A stretch of 41,882 nt of DNA from Candidatus Acetothermia bacterium (lineage in GTDB: Bacteria; Bipolaricaulota; Bipolaricaulia; Bipolaricaulales; Bipolaricaulaceae). Of the stretch, positions 1,093 through 30,332 are shown piece by piece. The stretch is from contig JANLFW010000012.1 in the NCBI GenBank assembly GCA_024653305.1, forward strand, positions 1-41,882. The letters run 5' to 3'. Position 1 is the stretch's first letter. Every line of letters starts with the position of its first letter. The translations under genes were made by a program, and so were the position numbers. The notes below the pieces were generated by a model. It saw only the letters and a program-made list of their open reading frames with translations, did not search any database and was not told the origin of the DNA.

Positions 1093-1129
1093 GTTGCACC
1101 CGCCCTCCGGGGCGGGTGAGGATTGAAAC
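1093..1129 (+). CRISPR. solitary CRISPR-type repeat (no array)
   Basis: A 37-base unit starting GTTGCACC and ending GAGGATTGAAAC, the hallmark 3' end of many type I CRISPR repeats. Its centre forms a perfect 9-bp hairpin, CACCCGCCC (1097-1105) with GGGCGGGTG (1110-1118) around the loop TCCG. I find no second copy at spacer distance and no other GATTGAAAC in the window, and there are no cas genes nearby. It is therefore an orphan repeat, either the last trace of a lost array or a unit left by repeat spread. Confidence 0.6.
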
Positions 1130-16582: not shown

Positions 16583-17236
16583 TCAACTCCGTGTGGCCCG
16601 GTGCAGGAGGGCCGGGATGGTCCGGAAGTCATGGGCCACGAACCGGGCCGCGGCGGCGACCTCGGGCGCTTTCGGGGCATAGGCGATGCCGCATCCCACC
16701 GCCGCGAGGACCGGGATGTCGTTCAGATGGTCCCCGACGAACGCAACCTCGGCGAGGGGGCAACCGAGCCGCCGGGCCTGGGCCTCGACCACGGACAGCT
16801 TATCGTCGAGGCCCACCCGCACCACCGCCGTGCCGGTGAACCGGCCGTCCTCGATCAGAAGCTCGTTGGCCACCGCGAAGTCGAGCCCGAGCTCCTCCCG
16901 CACCCGCTCCGCCACCAGGGACACCCCGGAGGACACGATGCCCAGGATGTACCCGTCATCCCGCAGCCGGGCCACGGTTTCCCGTACCCCAGGGGCATAG
17001 GGCGGGGGGAAGATCGCATCCGCGACCCGGGCCACCGGGACGTCGCGGAGGAGGGCCGCGTTCTCCCGGACCCAGTCCGGGTAGCGATCCGGTTGCCCCC
17101 GGTACCGGACGAGGAGGGCGTCCCACTCCCGGCCCACCCCGGCGGCGATCCCGATCGCCCCCCAGCTCGACTCGAACGCCACCCCCTGGTAGCGGACCAG
17201 GGTCCCGTCGAGGTCGAACAGAACCGCCCGGATCAC
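16583..17236 (-). CDS. HAD-family phosphatase (phosphoserine phosphatase-like)
   Basis: A 217-residue haloacid dehalogenase superfamily hydrolase. Motif I DLDGT (Asp8 nucleophile, Asp10 acid/base), motif II VSSG (101-104), motif III Lys146, motif IV GDHLND (168-173). The helical cap between motif I and II and the SSG motif fit the SerB/phosphoserine phosphatase-like branch, but substrate is not determinable. GTG start overlaps the stop of the upstream NosD-DUF192 gene (GTGA), and ftsZ follows after 37 bases. Confidence 0.88.
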   Translation of the reverse strand: MIRAVLFDLDGTLVRYQGVAFESSWGAIGIAAGVGREWDALLVRYRGQPDRYPDWVRENAALLRDVPVARVADAIFPPPYAPGVRETVARLRDDGYILGIVSSGVSLVAERVREELGLDFAVANELLIEDGRFTGTAVVRVGLDDKLSVVEAQARRLGCPLAEVAFVGDHLNDIPVLAAVGCGIAYAPKAPEVAAAARFVAHDFRTIPALLHRATRS

Positions 17237-19098
17237 GGGCTCGTGACAAGTTGGAGCTCCCCCGTGCCGAGGCCGGCCGCGGCGATCCGCCCGGCAGGGA
17301 GCTCGAGGGCCATGAGGAACGGGCTGGTTGTCCCATAGCGGTCCTTGGAGTCAGGCTCCATCGTGTTCCGGCCCAGGTACTCCCCGTCTGGCCCCCAGAA
17401 CACGATGTCCAAGGGCAGGAACACGTTGCTCATGTGGAACTGGCTTGGGACCGGTTTGGCGAACGTGAACAGGATCCCCACGTCCTGGGCCAGTTCGGGC
17501 GGCAGACCCTGGAACCCGATGAACCGCTCGTGGGCCTCGTCGGCGACACGCACGGTGACGTCAAGCCGGCGTCCGGCAGCATCGGCGACGGCGATGATCT
17601 TCTCGGCCATCGTGCCCACCACCCCGGGGAGGCCCGTGAAGAACCCGCGGTCCATGAGCGGTGCCGGGTCCTGCCCGCCCCCGCCGAAGTTGACCGGCGT
17701 GTCCCCGATCCCGTCCCCGTCCGCGTCTTGGCCAGTGTAATCCGAGTACCAGTTGCCCCGCCCGGCGGGGGCCCACTCGTTCGCCCCGAGGTCCCGGGCG
17801 GCGCGGTCGCAGCGCCAGATCAGGTTCTCGTAGATCCGGTTCCCCGAGGTCTCCCGCCCCAGGTACAGCCCGTCGCGGGACCGCCAGATCAGGTTCCGGC
17901 GCACGATGTTCCCGGTGGGGAACGCCGTCTGGTAGGTCTCCTCGAAGATGATGCCGATGTTGGCCCGCGTGATCAGGTTCCCCTCGAACGTGCCATGGGA
18001 GGCGAGGATGGAGAGGCCGTAGCCCACGCTGACCATGGACGAGTGGGTCACCCGGGGGTACACGGTGTGGCCACCTGCGTACACGGCGATGTCGGAGTCG
18101 GTGATCGCGCAGGCATCCACCACCGGGCCCACCGCCGCATCCAGTTCGATCCCATGGCGGTTCTGGTAGAAGAGGGAGCTCCGGATCTCCGTCTCCCGGG
18201 CGCCCCCGTCCACGAGCACCCCGATCGCGTTCCCGGCATAGGCATTGTTCAGGGCGAGCACGGAGTCGGAGGCGTTCACCATGAGGCCCACCTGGTTCGC
18301 ATAAAGCCCGCAGTTCTCCACGCGGACCCGGTCCGACATCCACACCGCGATGCCGGCCTGGGCGCTGTTGGCGATCCGTTCGCAACCCGTCACCACCGTG
18401 CCCGGGGAGGCGAGGATGAAGATCCCATGAGCCCGGTTGCGGGAAAGGTCCGCCCCCTCGATGCGCACGCCCTCGGAGAAGGCGACGGTGATCCCGTCCC
18501 CTTGATCGACCTTGGCCCCGCGCACGGTCACGTCCCGCGAGGCGGCGAGGGTGATGTGCCCGGCCTCGATCCCGTCCAGAACCTTTCCGGAGAGCCCGTA
18601 GTAGTAGTAGATCGGGTTCCCGTTCACGGTGTTCGTGATCTCGATGGCGTGACGGAACTGGTCGGGCGAGGTGCCCAACACCTGCAGGCCCACCCCGCCT
18701 GCAGCGAGGAAGTTGTCGCGGACGGCCACGTCTTGCGAGGACTGGATGACGATCCCGTTCAGGCTATCGCGGACGACGCAGTCCTCCACCGTGCCCCCCT
18801 GGACCTCGGAGAGGAGGATGGCCGCCCCGCGGGGGTCCATGGCCCCGCTCACCGTGCACCCGCGGACGACGAACGGGCGGGTCGTCCCCTCGATGCGGAT
18901 CCCGTACCGCTGCCCTTGGGGCACGCGGATCTGCCAGCCGGCGAGGATGTACGGGTCGCCCGGGGCCCCACTTCCGGCGATGACCCCGTTCTCCGCGGTG
19001 AAATCCGTATCCGACAGGATGGCGATCGGACCCCGCTCGGCGGCCATCCCGAGCACGGCCAAGGCCGTCGCCAACCAAAGGATTCCGATTGTTCTCAT
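17233..19098 (-). CDS. secreted NosD-like beta-helix protein fused to DUF192
   Basis: A 621-residue exported protein. Signal peptide MRTIGILWLATALAVLGMAA; residues about 50-440 are a right-handed parallel beta-helix of the NosD/CASH type with many short turns such as NLITRANIGIIF and ENLIWRCDRAARDLG; then a calcium-type loop DADGDGIGDTPV; residues about 513-608 are a DUF192 domain with ERFIGFQGLP, GILFTFAKP and FHMSNVFLPLDIVFW. NosD-like helices bind carbohydrate or metal sites; DUF192 function is unknown. First gene of the operon with its own promoter and AAAGGAGG site. The joining of these two domains is uncommon. Confidence 0.87.
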   Translation of the reverse strand: MRTIGILWLATALAVLGMAAERGPIAILSDTDFTAENGVIAGSGAPGDPYILAGWQIRVPQGQRYGIRIEGTTRPFVVRGCTVSGAMDPRGAAILLSEVQGGTVEDCVVRDSLNGIVIQSSQDVAVRDNFLAAGGVGLQVLGTSPDQFRHAIEITNTVNGNPIYYYYGLSGKVLDGIEAGHITLAASRDVTVRGAKVDQGDGITVAFSEGVRIEGADLSRNRAHGIFILASPGTVVTGCERIANSAQAGIAVWMSDRVRVENCGLYANQVGLMVNASDSVLALNNAYAGNAIGVLVDGGARETEIRSSLFYQNRHGIELDAAVGPVVDACAITDSDIAVYAGGHTVYPRVTHSSMVSVGYGLSILASHGTFEGNLITRANIGIIFEETYQTAFPTGNIVRRNLIWRSRDGLYLGRETSGNRIYENLIWRCDRAARDLGANEWAPAGRGNWYSDYTGQDADGDGIGDTPVNFGGGGQDPAPLMDRGFFTGLPGVVGTMAEKIIAVADAAGRRLDVTVRVADEAHERFIGFQGLPPELAQDVGILFTFAKPVPSQFHMSNVFLPLDIVFWGPDGEYLGRNTMEPDSKDRYGTTSPFLMALELPAGRIAAAGLGTGELQLVTSP

Positions 19099-20015: not shown

Positions 20016-20750
20016 ATGCGGGCGATGGCGTTCCTAGCCGTGGCGGTGACGTTGGGGGCCGGGATTGGGGTCGGGGAGACCCCCCACTACCTGTGGGGGG
20101 AGATCCGGGTCCCGGAAGGGGCCGTGCAGACGCTGTCGGTCCGGGCGGGAGCGCTCGGGATCCCGACCGCGGTGTGGACGGAGGCCGGCCTCACGGTCGC
20201 TGGGGCGGCCGATGAGGCGGCGATGCTCGCGGAGGGGGCGTACCTCTATGTGGACGGGCCGTGCTTTCTCCTGGCGGTGGACTCCACCGGGGAGCGGGCG
20301 GTGCTGCGGGGGACCGCTGCCCAGGCGGAGCTGATCGTCGGCGGGACGGGCGACGTCCTCTATTCCCCGCCCAGTGCGTTCCTCGCGCTGGCCGGGGAGC
20401 TGGGGCTGCTTCCCACGTGCAGCGTGGAGCTCCAGGTCAAGGAGGTGCCCTTGAAGCTCCCCCGTCCGCCGGAGGGGATGAAGCTGGATCCGGTGCTGTG
20501 GGCGCTCGTGGGGCACCCGGACTGGCTTGGGTTCGCCCGGGACTATGCTCTCGACCGGGTGGGGATCCGGGTGCGGGTCGTGGCGCAGGTAGCGGGGGCG
20601 CTCGCGGCCGAGTTTGAACCGTACATCCAAAGCTCGTCCGGGGCGCTGGTGGAGCTCCTGATCCCGATCCCGCTCCTCCCCGACCTCGGCCGGGATCCGG
20701 CGGTCGAGATCGTGCGCCCGCCGTACGTGCCCCATCCTGCCGGAGGCTGA
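20016..20750 (+). CDS. secreted protein of unknown function
   Basis: A 244-residue protein with a signal peptide (MRAMAFLAVAVTLGAGIGVG). I do not recognise a family. The body is beta-rich at first (LWGEIRVPEGAVQTLSVRAG, YLYVDGPCFLLAVDSTG) and then holds CSVELQVKEVPLKLPRPPEG and a C-terminal Pro-rich LIPIPLLPDLG. ATG preceded by AAAGGGGG; TATATT at 19976-19981 may be a -10 box but has no good -35. It precedes the subtilase with a repeat cluster between them, and may be co-expressed with it. Confidence 0.7.
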   Translation: MRAMAFLAVAVTLGAGIGVGETPHYLWGEIRVPEGAVQTLSVRAGALGIPTAVWTEAGLTVAGAADEAAMLAEGAYLYVDGPCFLLAVDSTGERAVLRGTAAQAELIVGGTGDVLYSPPSAFLALAGELGLLPTCSVELQVKEVPLKLPRPPEGMKLDPVLWALVGHPDWLGFARDYALDRVGIRVRVVAQVAGALAAEFEPYIQSSSGALVELLIPIPLLPDLGRDPAVEIVRPPYVPHPAGG

Positions 20751-20805
20751 TGACGATGACCATGAGGTTCGGGCGATCCGTGTTCCTCGGGCGAGGGCGA
20801 ACGGC

Positions 20806-20868
20806 GTCGGGGACAGGCCCCGATCGGCGTCGGGGACAACGGCCGTCGGGCATGAAGCCCGACGCTAC
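20806..20868. repeat. type-1 palindromic repeats before the subtilase
   Basis: Contains GTCGGGGACAGGCCCCGAT (20806-20824) and GTCGGGCATGAAGCCCGAC (20845-20863) followed by GCTAC, with a partial unit between. The second differs from the common type by matched changes on both arms, preserving the hairpin. It ends 7 bases before the subtilase ATG. Confidence 0.8.
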
Positions 20869-20875
20869 GGAACCA

Positions 20876-23800
20876 ATGCGACGGTGGGCGCTTCTTTCGT
20901 TGGTCGTCGCCGTGCTCAGCGCTCCCGTGCTGGCCCAGGTCGGGGTCGGAGCGCTCGATGCCGACCTCGCCCGGTGGCAGGAGGCGGCGGCCGTGGCCAG
21001 GGAGGCCGGCCTTTCCATCACCGTGACAGGCTACAGCGAATCCGCCCTGTACCAGCAGGTGTACACCCTGTCCGTATTCGGCCTCGCCAAGTTCGACGTG
21101 GCCCAGGTGCTCACGACCTGGCTCCCGGCGGTGCTGGGGCGGCTGGCCGACCTCGGCCCCTACGCGGAGGAGCTCCGCGGCGCCGGGGCCGAGCTCGTCT
21201 CCTACGGGGGGCGGGTGATCGGGGTCAAGCTCCCCTGGCGCGACGACGCGTTCGCCGGGGTGCTCGCCCGTTCGTCCCGCATCCGGGAGGCGGTGCGGTT
21301 CCTCCCGTTCTTGAGCGGGGGCAGGGCCCCCACCCCCGCGATCGCCCCGCTTCCCCTGTCCATTGGGCCGATCACCCTGGGCAAGACCGAGCGGGGAAAC
21401 CCGTTCGTGGACGGGGCCATTGAGCTGCTCCTCTCCGCGGTCCGCCAGGCCGTCCCGTCTGGGGCGGTGGCGCCCCTTGGCTACCTCCCGGCGGCGGCCC
21501 AGGAGGCGATCGCCCGGGTGGCCAAGATGGTCGGGGTGTCGCTGTCGACCGAGCGCAGCGAGGTGGTGGTGGTCCTGGAGCCGCGGGGGGCGGTGTCCCC
21601 GCTCGCCGCCGGGGCCCGGGAGGCGGTGTCCTCCCCAAGCGGGCTCACCAAGGTTGTGGTCCCCCTCGGGCAACTGGAGTCGTTCCTCGCCCAGGTTGCG
21701 CAAGCGGCCTACGTGCGCCTTCCCTACGAGCCGGTGCCCCTGGCGACAAGCGAGGGCGCGGCCCTGGCCGGGGCGGCGGCGTTCCACGCCGGAGGGATCC
21801 GGGGGGCCGGGGTCAAGGTGGCGGTGATCGACCTCGGGTTCAAGGGCCTCGCCGCGTCCCAGGCCCGCGGGGATCTCCCGTACTCCGTGATCACCCGCGA
21901 CTTCACCGGGACCGGGATCGAGGCCGGGATCTCCCACGGGACCGCGGTGGCCGAGATCGTGTACGACATCGCCCCGGATGCAGAGCTTGTTCTCGTGAAG
22001 ATCGGGAACGAGGTCGATCTTGATAACGCCGTCTCCTACTGCATCTCCGAGGGCGTGCACATCGTCAACCACTCCCTGGGTTGGTACAACACGAACTTCT
22101 ACGACGGGACCGGGGTGATCGCGGACATCGCCCGCCGGGCGACCGCGGCCGGGATCCTGTGGGTCCAGGCCGCGGGGAACGACGCCCTGCGCCACTACGG
22201 GGCCACGTTCACCGACGCCAACAGCGACGGCTGGCATGACACGGACATCACGTTCACCGCCCAGGCCGGGCAGCCGATCACCCTGTACCTGACGTGGGAT
22301 GCCTGGCCGCGGACCGCGGACGACTACGACCTCTACCTCTTCGGCCCCGGGGGGACGCTTCTCGCCTCGTCCACCAAGACCCAAGGGGGCACCGAGGAGC
22401 CCACGGAGCGGGTGTCCACCACCGCCCCTCAAACTGGGACGTACCGGGTGCGGATCCAGCGGGCGGGAGGGGCGGCGCGGCGCCTCGCGCTCTTCTCCAT
22501 CTACCAGGACGTTTCCCCGTGGGCCTCGCCGTCGTCGATCCCCGCCCCGGGGAACGCCGCCGAGGCCCTGACCGTGGCCGCGATCGACTGGGGGAACTAC
22601 ACGACCGGGCCCGCCGAGGCCTACTCCTCCCGCGGCCCGACGGCCGACGGCCGGCAAAAGCCCGACCTTGCCGCCCCGGACAACGTGACCACCGGGGTCA
22701 CCCCGTACTACAGCCCGTTCCCAGGGACGTCGGCCGCGGCGCCCCACGTGGCCGGGATCGCTGCCCTGATCAAGGCCGAGACGCCCGGCCTCACCTTGGC
22801 CCAGCTCCGCAGCCGGATCCTCTCGTTCTGTGTCGCCATGGGCGACCCGTACACGTACGGCGCCGGGCGCCTCGAGGCCCGGCCCCAAGCCGTGGCCCGA
22901 GCTGATCTGGTGGTGGATGCGATCACGTTCTCCCCGGCCTCGCCCGCGGTGGGGAGCACGGTCACGTTCCAGGTCACGGTGCGGAACCAGGGCACCGCCG
23001 GGGCGGGGAGCTTCGTGGTCCGGCTTTCGGGCGCGGGCCCGTCGCAGGACCAGAGCGTGGCCTCGCTTGGCGCGGGCGCCACGGCCACGCGCACGTTTAG
23101 CCTTCCGCTCTCCACCTCGCCCGAGACGTTCACCGCCACCGCCGACGTCTACAACCAGGTGGCCGAGTCGAACGAGGGGAACAACACCCGCCAGGTCACG
23201 GTGAGCGGGGTGACACCCCTCCCGGACCTCGTGATCCAGGACGTCCAGTACGCGCCGGCGAGCCCCACCATCGGGACGACGATTACGTTCCAGATCACGG
23301 TGCGCAACCAAGGCGGGTCCCCGGCCGGGGCGTTCTACGTGCGCCTCACCGGCGCCTCGGGGTACCGCAACGCCTCCATCTCCGGCCTCGGGGCGGGGAT
23401 GAGCCATACCGTGGCTCTCGCTCTCCCCCTCTCCACGAGCCCGGAGACGTTCACCGCCACCGCCGACGTCCTCGGGCAGGTGGCGGAGAGCGACGAGACG
23501 AACAACACCCGCCAGGTCACGGTCACCGCCGCCGCCCCGCCCCTGGCGTTCACCGTGGCTATGGACAAGTCCGTCTACACCGTGGGCGAGGCGGTGCGGG
23601 TCACGGTCCAGCTCTCCCGGGCAAGCTACGTGTACCTGGTGGAGCTCGACGCGGCGGGCCGGGCGGTCCTCATCTTCCCGAACTACTGGGAACAGAACCC
23701 GCAGCTACCTGCGGGGACGACCCAGCTTCCGCGGGGGGCGTACACGATCACCGCCACCGAGCCGGCCGGGGCCGAGCGGCTGGTTGGCTTTGCCGCCGAC

Positions 23801-25045
23801 CGGGCGATCCCCTACTTCCCGACATCCTTCGGGACCGGGTTCCCCGTGCTCTCCACGAACGGGGCGAACTTCCTAGCCCAGGTGCGGAACTGGCTGGCCT
23901 CGAACGTCCCCACCGGTTCGTGGGCCGAGGCGAGCGCCGCGTATACCGTGCAGCCTCAGGCGAACATCCCGCCCCAGGCGAGCTTCACGTTCTCGCCCGC
24001 AAGTCCGCTCGTGAACCAGTGGATCACGTTCGACGGCCGGGGCTCGACCGACCCCGACGGGACCATCGTCGGCTACAGTTGGAACTTCGGCGACGGGGCC
24101 ACGGCCACAGGCGCGCAGGTCCAGAAGCGCTACAGCTCGGCGGGCACGTACACGGTGGCCCTCACCGTGACCGACAACCGGGGCGCGACGGACACCACCA
24201 CGCGCACGGTGACCGTGACCGCCCCGAACCAGCCGCCCCAGGCGAGCTTCACGTTCTCCCCGACCAACCCCGACCCCGGGGTGAGCGTCTCGTTCGACGG
24301 GACGGGCTCCTCCGACCCGGATGGGAGCATCGTCTCCTACGCCTGGAACTTCGGGGATGGCGGCACGGCGAGCGGGGCCACGGTGAGCCATGCCTACGGG
24401 GCGGCCGGGACGTACACGGTGACCCTGACCGTGACCGACAACCTCGGGGCGACGGGGACGACGACGCGGACGATCACCGTGGGGACGCCGCCCGCGACGC
24501 TCCCCGGGATGCCGGTGATCGACAAGCCCGGGATCTACGTGTGGGGCACGGACAAGTGGCACGTCACCGTGGCCGGCGACCCAAGCTGGCCCTCCCCGCG
24601 CAAGTTCTACGTGCTCCTGGAGACGCCGGGCGCGTTCCAGAACCGCGTGGTGACCGGCGCTGCGCCGGCGCCCACGATCACCACCGGCGGCGGGCTTACC
24701 CGGCTCACGTGGGAGGGCACGGTGAGGGCGGGCTGGGTGGACCTCGCGTTCGACCTCACCGGCGCCACCTATGAGCAGCTTAACATGCAACTTACCCTAT
24801 ACCTCGATACGGACGGAGATGGGGTAGCCAAGCCTTCCCGCGACGCGAGGAAGATCGTGTTCCTGCGGGCGTGCCGGATAAACCCGCCGCAGAACCCGTT
24901 TGCGATAGGGGCTCCATGGGGGGAGACGAAGCTCCTGCCGGGCATGAACTTCCTGATCGGGGCCTGCCGCGATGGCACGTACCCAAACTGCCGCATCTCC
25001 TGGAACGGCATCGGATTCTGGGAGCGAGAGGCCGGCTGCCGGTAG
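20876..25045 (+). CDS. large secreted subtilisin-family protease with CARDB, DUF4384 and PKD domains
   Basis: A 1389-residue exported S8 serine protease. Signal peptide (MRRWALLSLVVAVLSAPVLA); N-terminal domain to about 290; catalytic Asp319 (VAVIDLGF), His354 (SHGTAVAEIV), oxyanion Asn in VQAAGND and Ser619 (GTSAAAPHVAG). A roughly 100-residue PPC-like beta domain (DITFTAQAGQPITLYLTWDA to GTYRVRIQRAG) is inserted between Asn and Ser. Then two CARDB repeats (about 680-880, each ending GNNTRQVTV or TNNTRQVTV), a DUF4384 domain (TVGEAVRVTVQLSRASYVYL), two PKD domains (about 1030-1205) and a unique C-terminal region with three or four Cys. The frame is open 126 bases further upstream, but that part is palindromic repeat; the signal peptide sets the start at 20876. 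Confidence 0.9.
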   Translation: MRRWALLSLVVAVLSAPVLAQVGVGALDADLARWQEAAAVAREAGLSITVTGYSESALYQQVYTLSVFGLAKFDVAQVLTTWLPAVLGRLADLGPYAEELRGAGAELVSYGGRVIGVKLPWRDDAFAGVLARSSRIREAVRFLPFLSGGRAPTPAIAPLPLSIGPITLGKTERGNPFVDGAIELLLSAVRQAVPSGAVAPLGYLPAAAQEAIARVAKMVGVSLSTERSEVVVVLEPRGAVSPLAAGAREAVSSPSGLTKVVVPLGQLESFLAQVAQAAYVRLPYEPVPLATSEGAALAGAAAFHAGGIRGAGVKVAVIDLGFKGLAASQARGDLPYSVITRDFTGTGIEAGISHGTAVAEIVYDIAPDAELVLVKIGNEVDLDNAVSYCISEGVHIVNHSLGWYNTNFYDGTGVIADIARRATAAGILWVQAAGNDALRHYGATFTDANSDGWHDTDITFTAQAGQPITLYLTWDAWPRTADDYDLYLFGPGGTLLASSTKTQGGTEEPTERVSTTAPQTGTYRVRIQRAGGAARRLALFSIYQDVSPWASPSSIPAPGNAAEALTVAAIDWGNYTTGPAEAYSSRGPTADGRQKPDLAAPDNVTTGVTPYYSPFPGTSAAAPHVAGIAALIKAETPGLTLAQLRSRILSFCVAMGDPYTYGAGRLEARPQAVARADLVVDAITFSPASPAVGSTVTFQVTVRNQGTAGAGSFVVRLSGAGPSQDQSVASLGAGATATRTFSLPLSTSPETFTATADVYNQVAESNEGNNTRQVTVSGVTPLPDLVIQDVQYAPASPTIGTTITFQITVRNQGGSPAGAFYVRLTGASGYRNASISGLGAGMSHTVALALPLSTSPETFTATADVLGQVAESDETNNTRQVTVTAAAPPLAFTVAMDKSVYTVGEAVRVTVQLSRASYVYLVELDAAGRAVLIFPNYWEQNPQLPAGTTQLPRGAYTITATEPAGAERLVGFAADRAIPYFPTSFGTGFPVLSTNGANFLAQVRNWLASNVPTGSWAEASAAYTVQPQANIPPQASFTFSPASPLVNQWITFDGRGSTDPDGTIVGYSWNFGDGATATGAQVQKRYSSAGTYTVALTVTDNRGATDTTTRTVTVTAPNQPPQASFTFSPTNPDPGVSVSFDGTGSSDPDGSIVSYAWNFGDGGTASGATVSHAYGAAGTYTVTLTVTDNLGATGTTTRTITVGTPPATLPGMPVIDKPGIYVWGTDKWHVTVAGDPSWPSPRKFYVLLETPGAFQNRVVTGAAPAPTITTGGGLTRLTWEGTVRAGWVDLAFDLTGATYEQLNMQLTLYLDTDGDGVAKPSRDARKIVFLRACRINPPQNPFAIGAPWGETKLLPGMNFLIGACRDGTYPNCRISWNGIGFWEREAGCR

Positions 25046-25184: not shown

Positions 25185-26387
25185 TCAGAACGAGAACGTC
25201 CAGCCCACGCCGAGCTCGGGAGCCCCGATAGCCGGGAGTTTGAGCGTGCTGTGGAAGCTCAGATTGCTGAGAAGCGGGATGCTCATGGTGGCCAGGGCCC
25301 GGGAAATCCCGAACAGGGTTCCACCGTCCTGGAAGTACACGGACACGTCGACGGAGTAGTTGCCGCCGCAGCACCCTGGTCCACAGAATCGGAACCTGAG
25401 GTACTCGTATTCGTCGCCTTCGAAGATATCGCCCAGGATGTCTTCCACTGCCGTGACGTCCAGTGCGGTCATGAACTCGATCGAATTGCACTGGCCCACT
25501 TCGCACCGGAGCTTATACCCGTAGATGGCCAAACTCCAGCTGGCATCTTCGGGGTCGTAGAGGACGTCCCCATACACTTGGACACAGAGCTGCCCAAATC
25601 CCGTGAACTTCGGGGTCAAGCTGACCTCTTTCGTTGTGGTGGTGAACTTCACGGAGGCATCGAATACGATTCCGCAACAAATCGGGGCGATGTCCTTTAC
25701 CGTGAACAGCAGGTACTCGAACCCAAGCTTGGAGAAGTAGAGCTTCATGCTGAACGTCACGCCGCAACAGAGAGGCGCGTCGGTGAACCCGAAGGAGAGG
25801 TCCTTGAACGTGATTCCGGTGCAGCAATCCTCAAACCGGGTCGTGATGTAGAACGGGCCACCGGTGAAGCCGAGGTTGTACCGCATGTAGGCGGCATCGA
25901 GCGGCGTCGTGGGTTCACAGCAGGGCCATGCGTAGTCCGGGTAGTACGGGTAAGCCCAGTGTTCAACCTTCGCGGTGAACTCTAGTCCGATCAGGCTGGC
26001 GGAAATCTCGATCCATCCCCACTTGTATTCCGGCGGAGAGAGGGTGTAGGACGTGTAGGACGTGGACTGGGGATCACAGTTAGGAGGGAACGTTACGGTC
26101 ACAGGGCCGGTGGCCAATGGGTTGAACGCAAGGCCTCCGGCGATGCCGATGGGCCCCAGGTACCCGGTGAGCCCAAACTCCTGAGCAGAAAATCCGGCTG
26201 CGGTTGAGGTCGATTTGCTGATCAGGGACCACCCAGCGATGGTGATGACAAGGGTGAGCGTGGTCTCGTCGAGTGCCGGGGTTGGGAGGAGGTCAAGATG
26301 AATCTCCCACCTTCCACTGGTCTGGATCTGTGCAAGCGATGTCAGACCTAAGGCGCACAGGGCAAGGGACAACACCGCTCGTTTCAT
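25185..26387 (-). CDS. secreted Cys-Cys-pair protein 1
   Basis: A 400-residue exported protein of no family I recognise, paralogous to the one at 26742. Signal peptide MKRAVLSLALCALGLTSLAQ. The body is made of beta-strand-like segments and carries five vicinal cysteine pairs: 156-157, 188-189 (RFEDCCTGITFKDL), 207-208 (APLCCGVTF), 237-238 (APICCGIVFD) and 339-340 (CGPGCCGG). The protein ends GVGWTFSF, an aromatic terminus like outer-membrane beta-barrels. ATG at 26387 follows AAGGAGG; the upstream open frame is noncoding. A transmembrane barrel or a disulfide- or metal-stabilised surface protein are both possible. Confidence 0.8.
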   Translation of the reverse strand: MKRAVLSLALCALGLTSLAQIQTSGRWEIHLDLLPTPALDETTLTLVITIAGWSLISKSTSTAAGFSAQEFGLTGYLGPIGIAGGLAFNPLATGPVTVTFPPNCDPQSTSYTSYTLSPPEYKWGWIEISASLIGLEFTAKVEHWAYPYYPDYAWPCCEPTTPLDAAYMRYNLGFTGGPFYITTRFEDCCTGITFKDLSFGFTDAPLCCGVTFSMKLYFSKLGFEYLLFTVKDIAPICCGIVFDASVKFTTTTKEVSLTPKFTGFGQLCVQVYGDVLYDPEDASWSLAIYGYKLRCEVGQCNSIEFMTALDVTAVEDILGDIFEGDEYEYLRFRFCGPGCCGGNYSVDVSVYFQDGGTLFGISRALATMSIPLLSNLSFHSTLKLPAIGAPELGVGWTFSF

Positions 26388-26503
26388 GGGCGAACCTCCT
26401 TCATGGGCTCTCGCGCGGTCTCTTGTACGCCGCAGCGGGGGCAGGGCCCAGGGTAGGGGTTCCCCGGCGATGGGAACATGGTCCGTAACGTGGATTACAC
26501 GAA

Positions 26504-26612
26504 GCGTCGGGGATAAACCCCGACGCTCGTTTCCCCTCCCCCTTGAAGGGAGAGGGTGATCGAGGCACGAGGACGACCCCCCACCCTCTCCCACAAAGGG
26601 GAGAATGGGCGG
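26504..26612. repeat. mosaic of type-1 and type-3 repeats
   Basis: Type 1 hairpin GCGTCGGGGATAAACCCCGA (26504 onward) joined to a type-3 block (CCCTCCCCCTTGAAGGGAGA, then GGTGATCGAGGCACGAGGAC and CCACCCTCTCCCACAAAGGG). It occupies most of the 354-base gap 26388-26741 together with the units at 26644 and 26706. Confidence 0.8.
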
Positions 26613-26643
26613 CGTTTCGTTTTATGGGCCACGGTCCTTCGAC

Positions 26644-26732
26644 GGGGCGGGGACAAGCCCCGGCGCTACGAAAAAAAGAGCCCCGGGAAATCCCCGGGGC
26701 CCTTGGTCGTCGGGGACAAGCCCCGACGCTAC
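26644..26732. repeat. two type-1 repeats flanking a terminator
   Basis: CGGGGCGGGGACAAGCCCCG (from 26644) and GTCGTCGGGGACAAGCCCCG (from 26706), each continuing to GCTAC. The minus-strand terminator at 26671-26700 lies between them. Confidence 0.78.
26671..26700 (-). terminator. intrinsic terminator of Cys-Cys protein 2
   Basis: On the minus strand GCCCCGGG (26700-26693), a 5-base loop and CCCGGGGC (26687-26680), then TCTTTTTTT (through 26671). Strong stem and seven consecutive Ts, 41 bases after the stop of the gene at 26742. Confidence 0.88.
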
Positions 26733-26741
26733 AAAGCTGAA

Positions 26742-27830
26742 CTAGAACGTGAACGTCCAGCCCAGGGTCAGCGTGTCGGGGGTGGCAAAGCCGACCTTGA
26801 CCGTGAAGTTGGCCATGACCGGGATGGACATGTTCGCGCCGAGCCGGGAGATCCCGAACAGGCCGCCCGCGTTGTCGAAGTAGACGGCGATGTCCACGCT
26901 GTAGGTGCCGCCGCAGCAGCCCGGACCGCAGAAGCCGAGCTTGATGTACTCGAACTCACCCGGCTTGAACGGGACGGGGTCGAAGTACAACCCAGCGTTC
27001 TCCGGGCTGAGGAAGGTCACGAACTCGACGTAGTTGCAGTCGGCAAGCGTGCACTTGATCTTCCACCCGTCAATCCGGATGGCGTTGAGGTACAGGTCCT
27101 CGCCCACGCCGCCCTCCGTCGCGATGTCGGCGTAGAGCTCGAAGCACGCCTCACCGAACCCGGCGAACTTCGGGGTCAGGGTGACCGTCTTTGCGTCGGT
27201 CTCGAACTTCACGCCGGCGTCAAAGGAGATCCCGCAGCAGATGGGGAAGATGTCCTTGGCCGTGAGCTCGAAGTACCCGAACCCGGCCTTGGTGAAGTAG
27301 AACGTGACGTCATAGGTGACGCCGCAGCACAGGCCAAGGCCCGTCAGGGTGAGCGTGAGGTCCTTGAACGCGATCCCGGTGCAGCAGTCGTTGAAGTTAA
27401 CGGTCAGCGTGACCGGGGCGGCCTTGGCGTAAACGGTGTACAGCATCGACGGCCCGGTCTGACAGCCGTAGTCCCCTGCGGCCTTGTGCTTCACTTGGAG
27501 GTAACCGTCGATCCCGGCGAACGACAGGGCGGCCTTGATGTCCGCCGACACGTACGCCGGGGTCCCGTCGAACGCCATGTTCCCGGTCACCGTGAGGGGA
27601 CCAAGCGCCCCGGAGGCCCCGAACGTGAGGGTGGCAGACCCAGCACCCGTGAACTTGGCGGTGCTCGTCACTGTCCACCCAGCCACCGTGTACTTGAGGG
27701 CGAGCGTGGTGTTCACCAATCCCACGGCGGGAAGGATGTTAAGGTTTGCAGACCAAGAGCCCGTGAGCTGGGCGAACCCAGCAAAGCCGAACATACACAG
27801 AATCAAACCAATCGCGAGAGCCCGCTTCAT
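26742..27830 (-). CDS. secreted Cys-Cys-pair protein 2
   Basis: A 362-residue exported protein, paralogue of the 25185 gene. Signal peptide MKRALAIGLILCMFGFAGFA, then beta-rich sequence with four vicinal cysteine pairs: 149-150 (NFNDCCTGIAFKDL), 168-169 (GLCCGVTYD), 198-199 (FPICCGISFD) and 305-306 (FCGPGCCGGTYSVD), and single Cys at 123, 229, 260, 265 and 301. Spacing between the first three pairs (19 and 30 residues) is identical in the paralogue. C-terminus LGWTFTF is barrel-like. It has a near-consensus promoter, a long leader, an AAAGGAGG site and its own strong terminator, so it is a monocistronic and probably abundant product. Function unknown. Confidence 0.82.
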   Translation of the reverse strand: MKRALAIGLILCMFGFAGFAQLTGSWSANLNILPAVGLVNTTLALKYTVAGWTVTSTAKFTGAGSATLTFGASGALGPLTVTGNMAFDGTPAYVSADIKAALSFAGIDGYLQVKHKAAGDYGCQTGPSMLYTVYAKAAPVTLTVNFNDCCTGIAFKDLTLTLTGLGLCCGVTYDVTFYFTKAGFGYFELTAKDIFPICCGISFDAGVKFETDAKTVTLTPKFAGFGEACFELYADIATEGGVGEDLYLNAIRIDGWKIKCTLADCNYVEFVTFLSPENAGLYFDPVPFKPGEFEYIKLGFCGPGCCGGTYSVDIAVYFDNAGGLFGISRLGANMSIPVMANFTVKVGFATPDTLTLGWTFTF

Positions 27831-27953: not shown

Positions 27954-27982
27954 ATTCTAGCGATCCTGCCCCCCCCTGTCAA
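27954..27982 (-). promoter_or_regulatory. strong promoter of Cys-Cys protein 2
   Basis: TTGACA (27982-27977), 17 bases, TAGAAT (27959-27954): consensus -35, near-consensus -10. Transcription would start near 27947, giving a leader of about 117 bases before the ATG at 27830. Confidence 0.85.
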
Positions 27983-28234: not shown

Positions 28235-28756
28235 TCACCAGAACAGGGCGATCGCCACCGCGGCCAGGCTCAGCACCACCCCGGTCACCCCGAGCACGAA
28301 CCCGAGCTGGGCCTGACGGGCGACCTCCCCCCCGGCTTGGCTCTGCACGCTCTGGAGCCCCTGGCGGACGCTCGCCACCTCGGTCCGCAGCCCCTGCACG
28401 TCCGTCCCCTGCCGGGCCACGTCCGCGGACACCGTCTTGAGACGGGCGTCGAGGGCGCTGATCTGCGCCGCGAGGTCCGCGGTGGGCCGCGTCCCCTCCA
28501 CGTTCTTCACCGCCCGGTACAGCCACTGGGCCGCGTCGTACCGGAGGAGCGGCTGGTTCCCCTGGAACTCGCCCCCGGCCCCGATCACGATGATCCCCCG
28601 CTGCACCAGGTCCCGGATCGCCGTGTACGCCGGATGGGAGGTGGGCACGTCCACGAACACCCCACCCCCACCGCCGTCGGCCAACCCCGGGGTGAGCCCC
28701 CACACCGAGAGCACCCCGAGCCCCAACACCACGAACACGATCCGCCTCATCGCCAT
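28235..28756 (-). CDS. SLH-domain envelope protein with coiled coil
   Basis: A 173-residue exported protein: signal peptide (MRRIVFVVLGLGVLSVWGLTP region), a glycine run, then one S-layer homology domain (VFVDVPTSHPAYTAIRDLVQRG to RYDAAQWLYRAVKN), a coiled-coil stretch (about 90-145, heptad-like ARLKTVSADVARQG...) and a C-terminal membrane helix (FVLGVTGVVLSLAAVAIALF). SLH domains bind secondary cell-wall polymers or peptidoglycan, so with its C-terminal anchor it could tie membrane to wall. AAGGAGGG precedes the ATG at 28756; an ATG 6 bases later is equally possible. Confidence 0.85.
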   Translation of the reverse strand: MAMRRIVFVVLGLGVLSVWGLTPGLADGGGGGVFVDVPTSHPAYTAIRDLVQRGIIVIGAGGEFQGNQPLLRYDAAQWLYRAVKNVEGTRPTADLAAQISALDARLKTVSADVARQGTDVQGLRTEVASVRQGLQSVQSQAGGEVARQAQLGFVLGVTGVVLSLAAVAIALFW

Positions 28757-30309: not shown

Positions 30310-30332
30310 GTCGGGGACAAGCCCCGACGCTC
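30154..30332. repeat. mosaic repeats overlapping the 3' end of the isomerase gene
   Basis: Type 1 GTCGGGCACAGGGCCCGAC (30157) and GTCGGGGATGAACCCCGAC (30181), type-3 block (CCCCCCTTGATGGGGGAGGG), type 2 (GCGACGGCCCTTCATGGGCG) and after the stop another type 1 (GTCGGGGACAAGCCCCGAC, 30311). The first 156 bases are read as isomerase codons. Confidence 0.82.

Follow-up and report, generated by a model that had tools for sequence, protein, structure and literature searches.

Predicted tethered outer-membrane barrels of Bipolaricaulota with a putative cysteine-stapled periplasmic rim

In Thermotoga maritima, the porin gene ompB adjoins ompA1 and is transcribed in the same direction (PMC3387000). 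Here, we report a similar gene plan in Bipolaricaulota, a phylum whose monoderm or diderm status Hao et al. left undecided in 2018 (PMC6092417) and to which a 2023 paper ascribed an outer membrane that is detached at the poles (PMC10665443). The locus lies in a 41,882-nt stretch of DNA from Candidatus Acetothermia bacterium (contig JANLFW010000012.1), which we call the window, and comprises two adjacent paralogous genes, A and B, together with a gene for a putative tether upstream of B. We find that A and B very probably belong to a large undescribed family of outer-membrane barrels, found here only in Bipolaricaulota, and that their conserved cysteines lie at the barrel rims. Taken as a whole, the reading of these proteins as tethered Bipolaricaulota porins with a cysteine-stapled periplasmic rim is probable. 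The family, its fold class, the position of the cysteines at the rims, their co-loss in pairs and the gene neighbourhood are computational results; the porin function, the membrane orientation, the bonds and their benefit are proposals.

Predicted fold and family

Protein B (26742–27830, minus strand; 362 amino acids) consists of a signal peptide and a predicted 22-stranded outer-membrane β-barrel, as indicated by its open reading frame, AlphaFold and Foldseek; it contains 13 mature cysteines and ends in LTLGWTFTF. Its paralogue, protein A (25185–26387, minus strand; 400 amino acids), has the same 22-strand topology with a small extra hairpin in the loop between strands 5 and 6 (s5–s6), and 15 mature cysteines. 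The open frame of A extends upstream to 26594; we set the start at 26387 because the signal peptide begins at the methionine of MKRAV there. The two proteins align end to end with 39% identity (E = 1e-72), which, together with the invariant cysteines in 55 sequences, rules out chance similarity. Their signal helices (residues 2–19 in B and 2–18 in A) both end in AQ and their C-termini read GWTFSF or GWTFTF, the final Phe (F362 in B) being invariant or nearly so. The initial annotation had described adjacent secreted paralogues with barrel-like aromatic C-termini, a description that these helices, termini and both AlphaFold models bear out. A lipoprotein reading was rejected, as Cys12 lies outside any lipobox and many members have a different residue at that position.

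Neither A, B nor 25 aligned relatives gave a significant sequence match in Pfam, NCBIfam or PDB, in agreement with the earlier impression that the family was of no known kind. A match to VATC in A (E = 0.039), under the cut-off and spanning 20 residues of the CGPGCC motif, was discarded. AlphaFold models built from 55 natural sequences for B and 44 for A had a mean predicted local distance difference test score of 88.4 and a predicted template-modelling (TM) score of 0.73 for B, and 87.1 and 0.75 for A. In both, the signal helix is followed by 22 antiparallel up-and-down strands. Every top Foldseek match in the PDB was an outer-membrane barrel (BtuB, OmpF/OmpC, LptD, usher and VDAC), with the 22-stranded BtuB in the lead, and the strands show hydrophobic–polar alternation (z = 6.7 over shuffles). 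The strands and fold matches suggest that the barrel closes. The turns on one side are short (mean 3.1 residues) and the loops on the opposite side longer (6.5), as expected of periplasmic and extracellular ends, respectively; on this basis and by strand counting, we infer the membrane orientation. No plug domain was found: Pfam gave no match to one, and in the B model the strands start directly after the signal peptide. Of 31 family genomes, 29 encode Omp85/BamA (PF01103), that of the window among them.

Relatives occur throughout the phylum. A single-protein search found them in 63 of 100 genomes, and the 55-sequence profile matched 89 of the 100 Bipolaricaulota genomes, which represent 32 of 39 genera; a single genome has as many as 14 matches. 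At the level of genome contigs, scanning with a single protein gave no match and scanning with the alignment gave 53 loci. There are several more copies in the window's genome (1.59 Mb, 73 contigs), and tandem arrangements are common (at least two copies in 12 of 28 long loci). Occurrence outside Bipolaricaulota was examined by exact-pattern scan only, and distant relatives elsewhere are possible. Named records with relatives are Bipolaricaulota or Acetothermia assemblies apart from a few labels, among them an 'uncultured bacterium' (L063). Two records labelled Thermotoga (L053 and L081) come from an assembly that duplicates a genome of the family to which the window belongs, with identical matches, and were dismissed as evidence of wider occurrence. 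An archaeal record (L051, JAPDJZ010000103.1) carries a Bipolaricaulota-type barrel as one copy on a 3.9-kb contig, and a BamA search of that genome was negative; it is therefore probably contamination of a metagenome-assembled genome. Searches against plasmids and phages gave no match and a mobile or phage origin was set aside. We place A and B in this barrel family, and in the outer-membrane fold class, with high confidence.

An adjoining tether gene and porin function

Directly upstream of B on the same strand lies a gene (28235–28756, minus strand) for a 173-amino-acid Omp-α-like protein with a signal peptide, an SLH domain (PF00395, E = 4e-5), a coiled coil and a C-terminal hydrophobic helix. 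Of 100 Bipolaricaulota genomes, 65 encode this protein, each in one copy, and it is likely to be the outer-membrane tether of the phylum. In ten genomes representing nine genera and two families (that of the window, G000, and G003, G016, G017, G028, G038, G067, G085, G093 and G095), its gene immediately precedes a barrel gene in the same orientation; in five more (G005, G009, G011, G014 and G015) it is divergent from a barrel gene within 3 kb. Neither the tether nor the phylum-wide barrel family had figured in the initial annotation.

Between the tether gene and B there is a σ70-like promoter match (27954–27982, minus strand; TTGACA-17-TAGAAT, 11 of 12 positions), and between B and A a strong intrinsic-terminator-like hairpin (26676–26704, minus strand; 13 bp followed by a T-run), both identified by consensus match alone. 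With its own promoter-like signal and terminator-like hairpin, B may be separable from A in transcription. An Rfam search added nothing at the A/B locus.

The barrel models, fold matches, signal peptide, aromatic terminal strand, amphipathicity, BamA and adjoining tether make a porin the most likely identity of A and B, and we consider the predicted porin function quite likely. In this reading, the signal peptides would direct export, BamA would fold the proteins as plug-less barrels of 22 strands, and a distinct SLH/coiled-coil/anchor protein, the single-copy product of the gene next to B, would keep them close to the wall. That they are instead soluble, β-rich secreted or cell-wall proteins with an artefactual barrel model is very improbable: the 2018 description of the diderm status of the phylum as unresolved (PMC6092417) would leave room for such a protein, but two models, amphipathic strands, the terminal aromatic motif, BamA and the outer membrane attributed to the phylum later (PMC10665443) argue against it.

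Some paralogues raise the question of whether the barrel serves as an anchor rather than a pore. CBM48/AMPK-type starch-binding modules are inserted between strands 7 and 8 in some, a loop on the long-loop side, in agreement with the long loops facing the surface; others carry InlB-type, DUF11 or CARDB repeats ahead of the barrel. A barrel that holds such modules for display, or forms an adhesive surface layer, would account for these inserts and N-terminal extensions and for frames of up to 3283 amino acids. However, A and B have no such modules, their mature barrels being of about 340–380 amino acids, and B has its own promoter- and terminator-like signals beside a tether gene, as a major porin would; we therefore judge a display function improbable for the pair and retain the porin reading. 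Individual loci illustrate the variety of these architectures. Barrel paralogues at L068, L083 and L037 carry up to three CBM48/AMPK-type modules, some of them between strands 7 and 8. Giant frames of 1283 to 3283 amino acids at L100 (G005:C1:1624000-1637000), L065 and L112 end in an A/B-type barrel domain, which at L065 is preceded by DUF11/CARDB and InlB-type repeats; such proteins are possibly autotransporter-like or used for surface display.

Cysteines at the barrel rims

The initial annotation had drawn attention to four vicinal cysteine pairs shared by the paralogues, and these are present as described, in the contexts DCCTGI-FKDL, CCGV, ICCGI-FD and CGPGCCGG and with identical spacing of the first three (19 and 30 residues) in A and B. 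Composition alone would give about 0.5 CC dipeptides (n(n−1)/L) against the four in B. In both models the cysteines occupy structurally equivalent positions, all at the barrel rims and none in mid-strand. Periplasmic turns make up 27% of the chain of B, and ten of its 13 mature cysteines are no more than three residues from one (P = 2e-4); by strand counting, these ten would occupy five consecutive periplasmic turns, spanning strands 10–19.

In B (all positions on the minus strand), the periplasmic-side residues, as assigned by the predicted orientation, are the pairs Cys168-Cys169 (27324–27329) in turn s10–s11, Cys198-Cys199 (27234–27239) in turn s12–s13 and Cys305-Cys306 (26913–26918) in turn s18–s19 within CGPGCCGG, together with the single residues Cys229 (27144–27146) at the start of s15, Cys260 (27051–27053) at the end of s16, Cys265 (27036–27038) at the start of s17 and Cys301 (26928–26930) at the end of s18. 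The four single cysteines, which the initial annotation had not covered, are part of the same conserved pattern. The remaining pair, Cys149-Cys150 (27381–27386) in loop s9–s10, lies with Cys123 on the long-loop, putatively extracellular side. The counterparts in A are Cys188-Cys189 (25821–25826), Cys207-Cys208 (25764–25769), Cys237-Cys238 (25674–25679) and Cys339-Cys340 (25368–25373), matching B 149/150, 168/169, 198/199 and 305/306, respectively; A has a fifth, extra pair, Cys156-Cys157 (25917–25922), in the extracellular-side loop s7–s8. Across the 55-sequence alignment, C168, C229, C260, C305 and C306 are invariant and C169, C198, C199 and C301 are at least 90% conserved.

Pairwise loss and candidate bonds

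To characterize how the cysteines pair, we analysed their joint loss in 111 non-redundant relatives (<80% identity). Loss was modular, with φ coefficients of 0.84 for 198–199, 0.83 for 168–260, 0.79 for 265–301 and 0.75 for 123–149, although alignment error from the hidden Markov model is possible near gaps. Loss events were also counted on a tree from which the cysteine columns had been left out. On this tree, C198 and C199 are lost as a unit, with eight shared loss branches (P = 1.7e-9). C168 and C260, 92 residues apart, share five branches of seven and six events (P = 3e-8), whereas the adjacent C168 and C169 share just two of seven and eight (P = 0.02), which argues against adjacency alone as the cause of co-loss. 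C149 and C150 are mostly lost along with C123, and the coupling of C305 with C306 is moderate, resting on three shared events. Of 31 members that lack the extracellular set, 24 have an even number of mature cysteines, commonly 10, 8 or 6, although such counts are not phylogenetically independent.

The initial annotation had noted that vicinal cysteines can form strained, redox-active disulfides or bind metal. The pairwise losses, such as that of C168 with C260, make most of the vicinal pairs resemble staples between turns, and the idea of vicinal disulfides is not supported for the CC pairs as such; 198/199 alone behaves like a self-contained vicinal unit and is a candidate vicinal disulfide. 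The simplest reading that we infer from the sequence pattern has disulfides linking turns, a single vicinal disulfide at 198–199 and one extracellular thiol left unpaired. Cross-links would staple five neighbouring periplasmic turns, with candidate bonds 168–260 and 265–301 (the latter between neighbouring strands) and two among 169, 229, 305 and 306; most of the conserved cysteines would then not form strained vicinal disulfides, 198–199 being the single likely one, and a separate small set would sit on the extracellular rim. Such a network could lend rigidity to the inner rim of what would be an exceptionally wide pore. We lean somewhat towards this disulfide network.

Its main alternative for the minimal core is a metal site, in which 169, 229, 305 and 306, helped by 168/260, would bind metal at the periplasmic mouth of the same barrel, making it a metal-handling or metal-gated porin with the other pairs as accessory disulfides. 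Several relatives keep only the four-cysteine core 169/229/305/306, C171 can appear where C169 is lost, which gives CxxC, and one relative (L088) has His in place of C229; a metal site would also suit a family in which no canonical disulfide pathway was detected save DsbA-like matches in 3–4 of 21 genomes. Yet losses are pairwise and the four ligands are not lost jointly, neither fold nor sequence comparison gave a match among metal-binding families, and the even cysteine counts are compatible with disulfides too. We consider the metal site unlikely. Less promising still is a redox switch, in which the CC pairs, as true vicinal disulfides or redox-active dithiols, would change the state of the pore in response to the environmental redox potential. 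Loss of 198/199 as a unit on eight branches, the placement of CC in tight CCG turns in the models and the genome's fusion of a secreted, CPHC-bearing thioredoxin-like segment with a DsbD/CcdA-type domain agree with it; the weak coupling of 168 to 169 and strong coupling to 260, the moderate 305/306 coupling on three events and the lack of a co-located redox partner do not, and we regard it as improbable.

Several observations weigh against the tethered porin with a cysteine-stapled rim. DsbB was found in 0 of 21 and VKOR in 0 of 31 family genomes, in searches that did match control genomes, and DsbA-like proteins are present in 3–4 of 21 family genomes, the search of the window's genome being negative. 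The co-loss of 265 and 301 is weaker once phylogeny is counted (two shared branches, P = 0.009), and the turns of C168 and C260 are six strands apart, so a bond between them would require the turns to fold inward. With the extracellular set present, the cysteine count is odd in 18 of 22 members, which implies at least one unpaired thiol in such proteins. Foldseek TM-scores are modest (0.39–0.56), so the size, closure and exact shape of the barrel are uncertain, though the fold class is firm.

A DsbD/CcdA-type membrane domain is nearly universal in the family genomes (20 of 21). The window's genome encodes such a domain joined to a secreted, CPHC-containing thioredoxin-like segment (L154:1628-3148, minus strand) and, beside it, a CPDC thioredoxin-like protein (L154:3356-3832, minus strand). 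Together these form a possible unusual envelope thiol system, which may be oxidising or reducing. It is a speculative and rather unlikely option that a non-Dsb thiol system, for example this CPHC-thioredoxin/CcdA fusion, assembles a cysteine-built gate on the periplasmic rim, in the form of a four-cysteine metal site or a disulfide knot plugging the mouth.

Other features of the window

Convergent with A is a gene for a secreted subtilase of 1431 amino acids with CARDB, PKD and DUF4384 domains (20750–25045, plus strand), and further along lies a NosD/β-helix protein with a C-terminal DUF192 domain (17233–19098, minus strand). Near the contig start, Rfam matched a CRISPR-DR9 direct repeat (1093–1129, plus strand). 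The GC-rich palindrome TCGGGGCTTGTCCCCG has 10 near-matches in the window against 2.4 expected, mostly intergenic (for example, 26711–26726, 30312–30327 and 26648–26663), and is a short interspersed repeat in the window's genome.

Comparison with known envelope systems

The closest described arrangement is that of Thermotoga OmpA1/OmpB (Omp-α/Omp-β, TM0477/TM0476), in which a gene for an SLH/coiled-coil/anchor protein is followed on one strand by a signal-peptide-bearing barrel of about 400 amino acids with an aromatic C-terminus (PMC3387000), a likeness in gene plan and protein description. No cysteines are mentioned for OmpB in that paper, whereas the Bipolaricaulota barrels are multi-copy and cysteine-rich. 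OmpM/SlpA of Veillonella and Deinococcus likewise combine SLH, coiled coil and outer-membrane barrel in a tether-and-pore plan of deep-branching diderms (PMC10628300, PMC9388160); there, however, SLH and barrel share one polypeptide, and in Bipolaricaulota they are encoded by separate genes, the barrel having no SLH domain. A split tether/barrel plan common to Thermotoga and Bipolaricaulota is relevant to the ancestry of outer-membrane attachment among deep-branching bacteria. The locus supplies likely major porins and an outer-membrane tether for a candidate phylum and bears on its true diderm status, left open by the first prosthecate genome paper.

Chlamydial MOMP is also a cysteine-rich, disulfide-linked outer-membrane porin (PMC549562). 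Its Pfam profile was unmatched in 27 of 27 Bipolaricaulota barrels, which differ from it in having 22 predicted strands and cysteines confined to the rims and conserved as pairs. BtuB-type TonB-dependent transporters are the best fold match, with 22 strands like A and B, but A and B have no plug, much shorter strands and loops, and only 9–13% identity (TM-score 0.39–0.56). LptD, whose function depends on disulfides, is an outer-membrane barrel among the Foldseek matches that is larger, has a periplasmic domain and shows no sequence match to A or B. Paired rim cysteines in a phylum whose searched family genomes yielded no DsbB or VKOR, and seldom DsbA, offer a test case for the oxidation or metallation of outer-membrane proteins.

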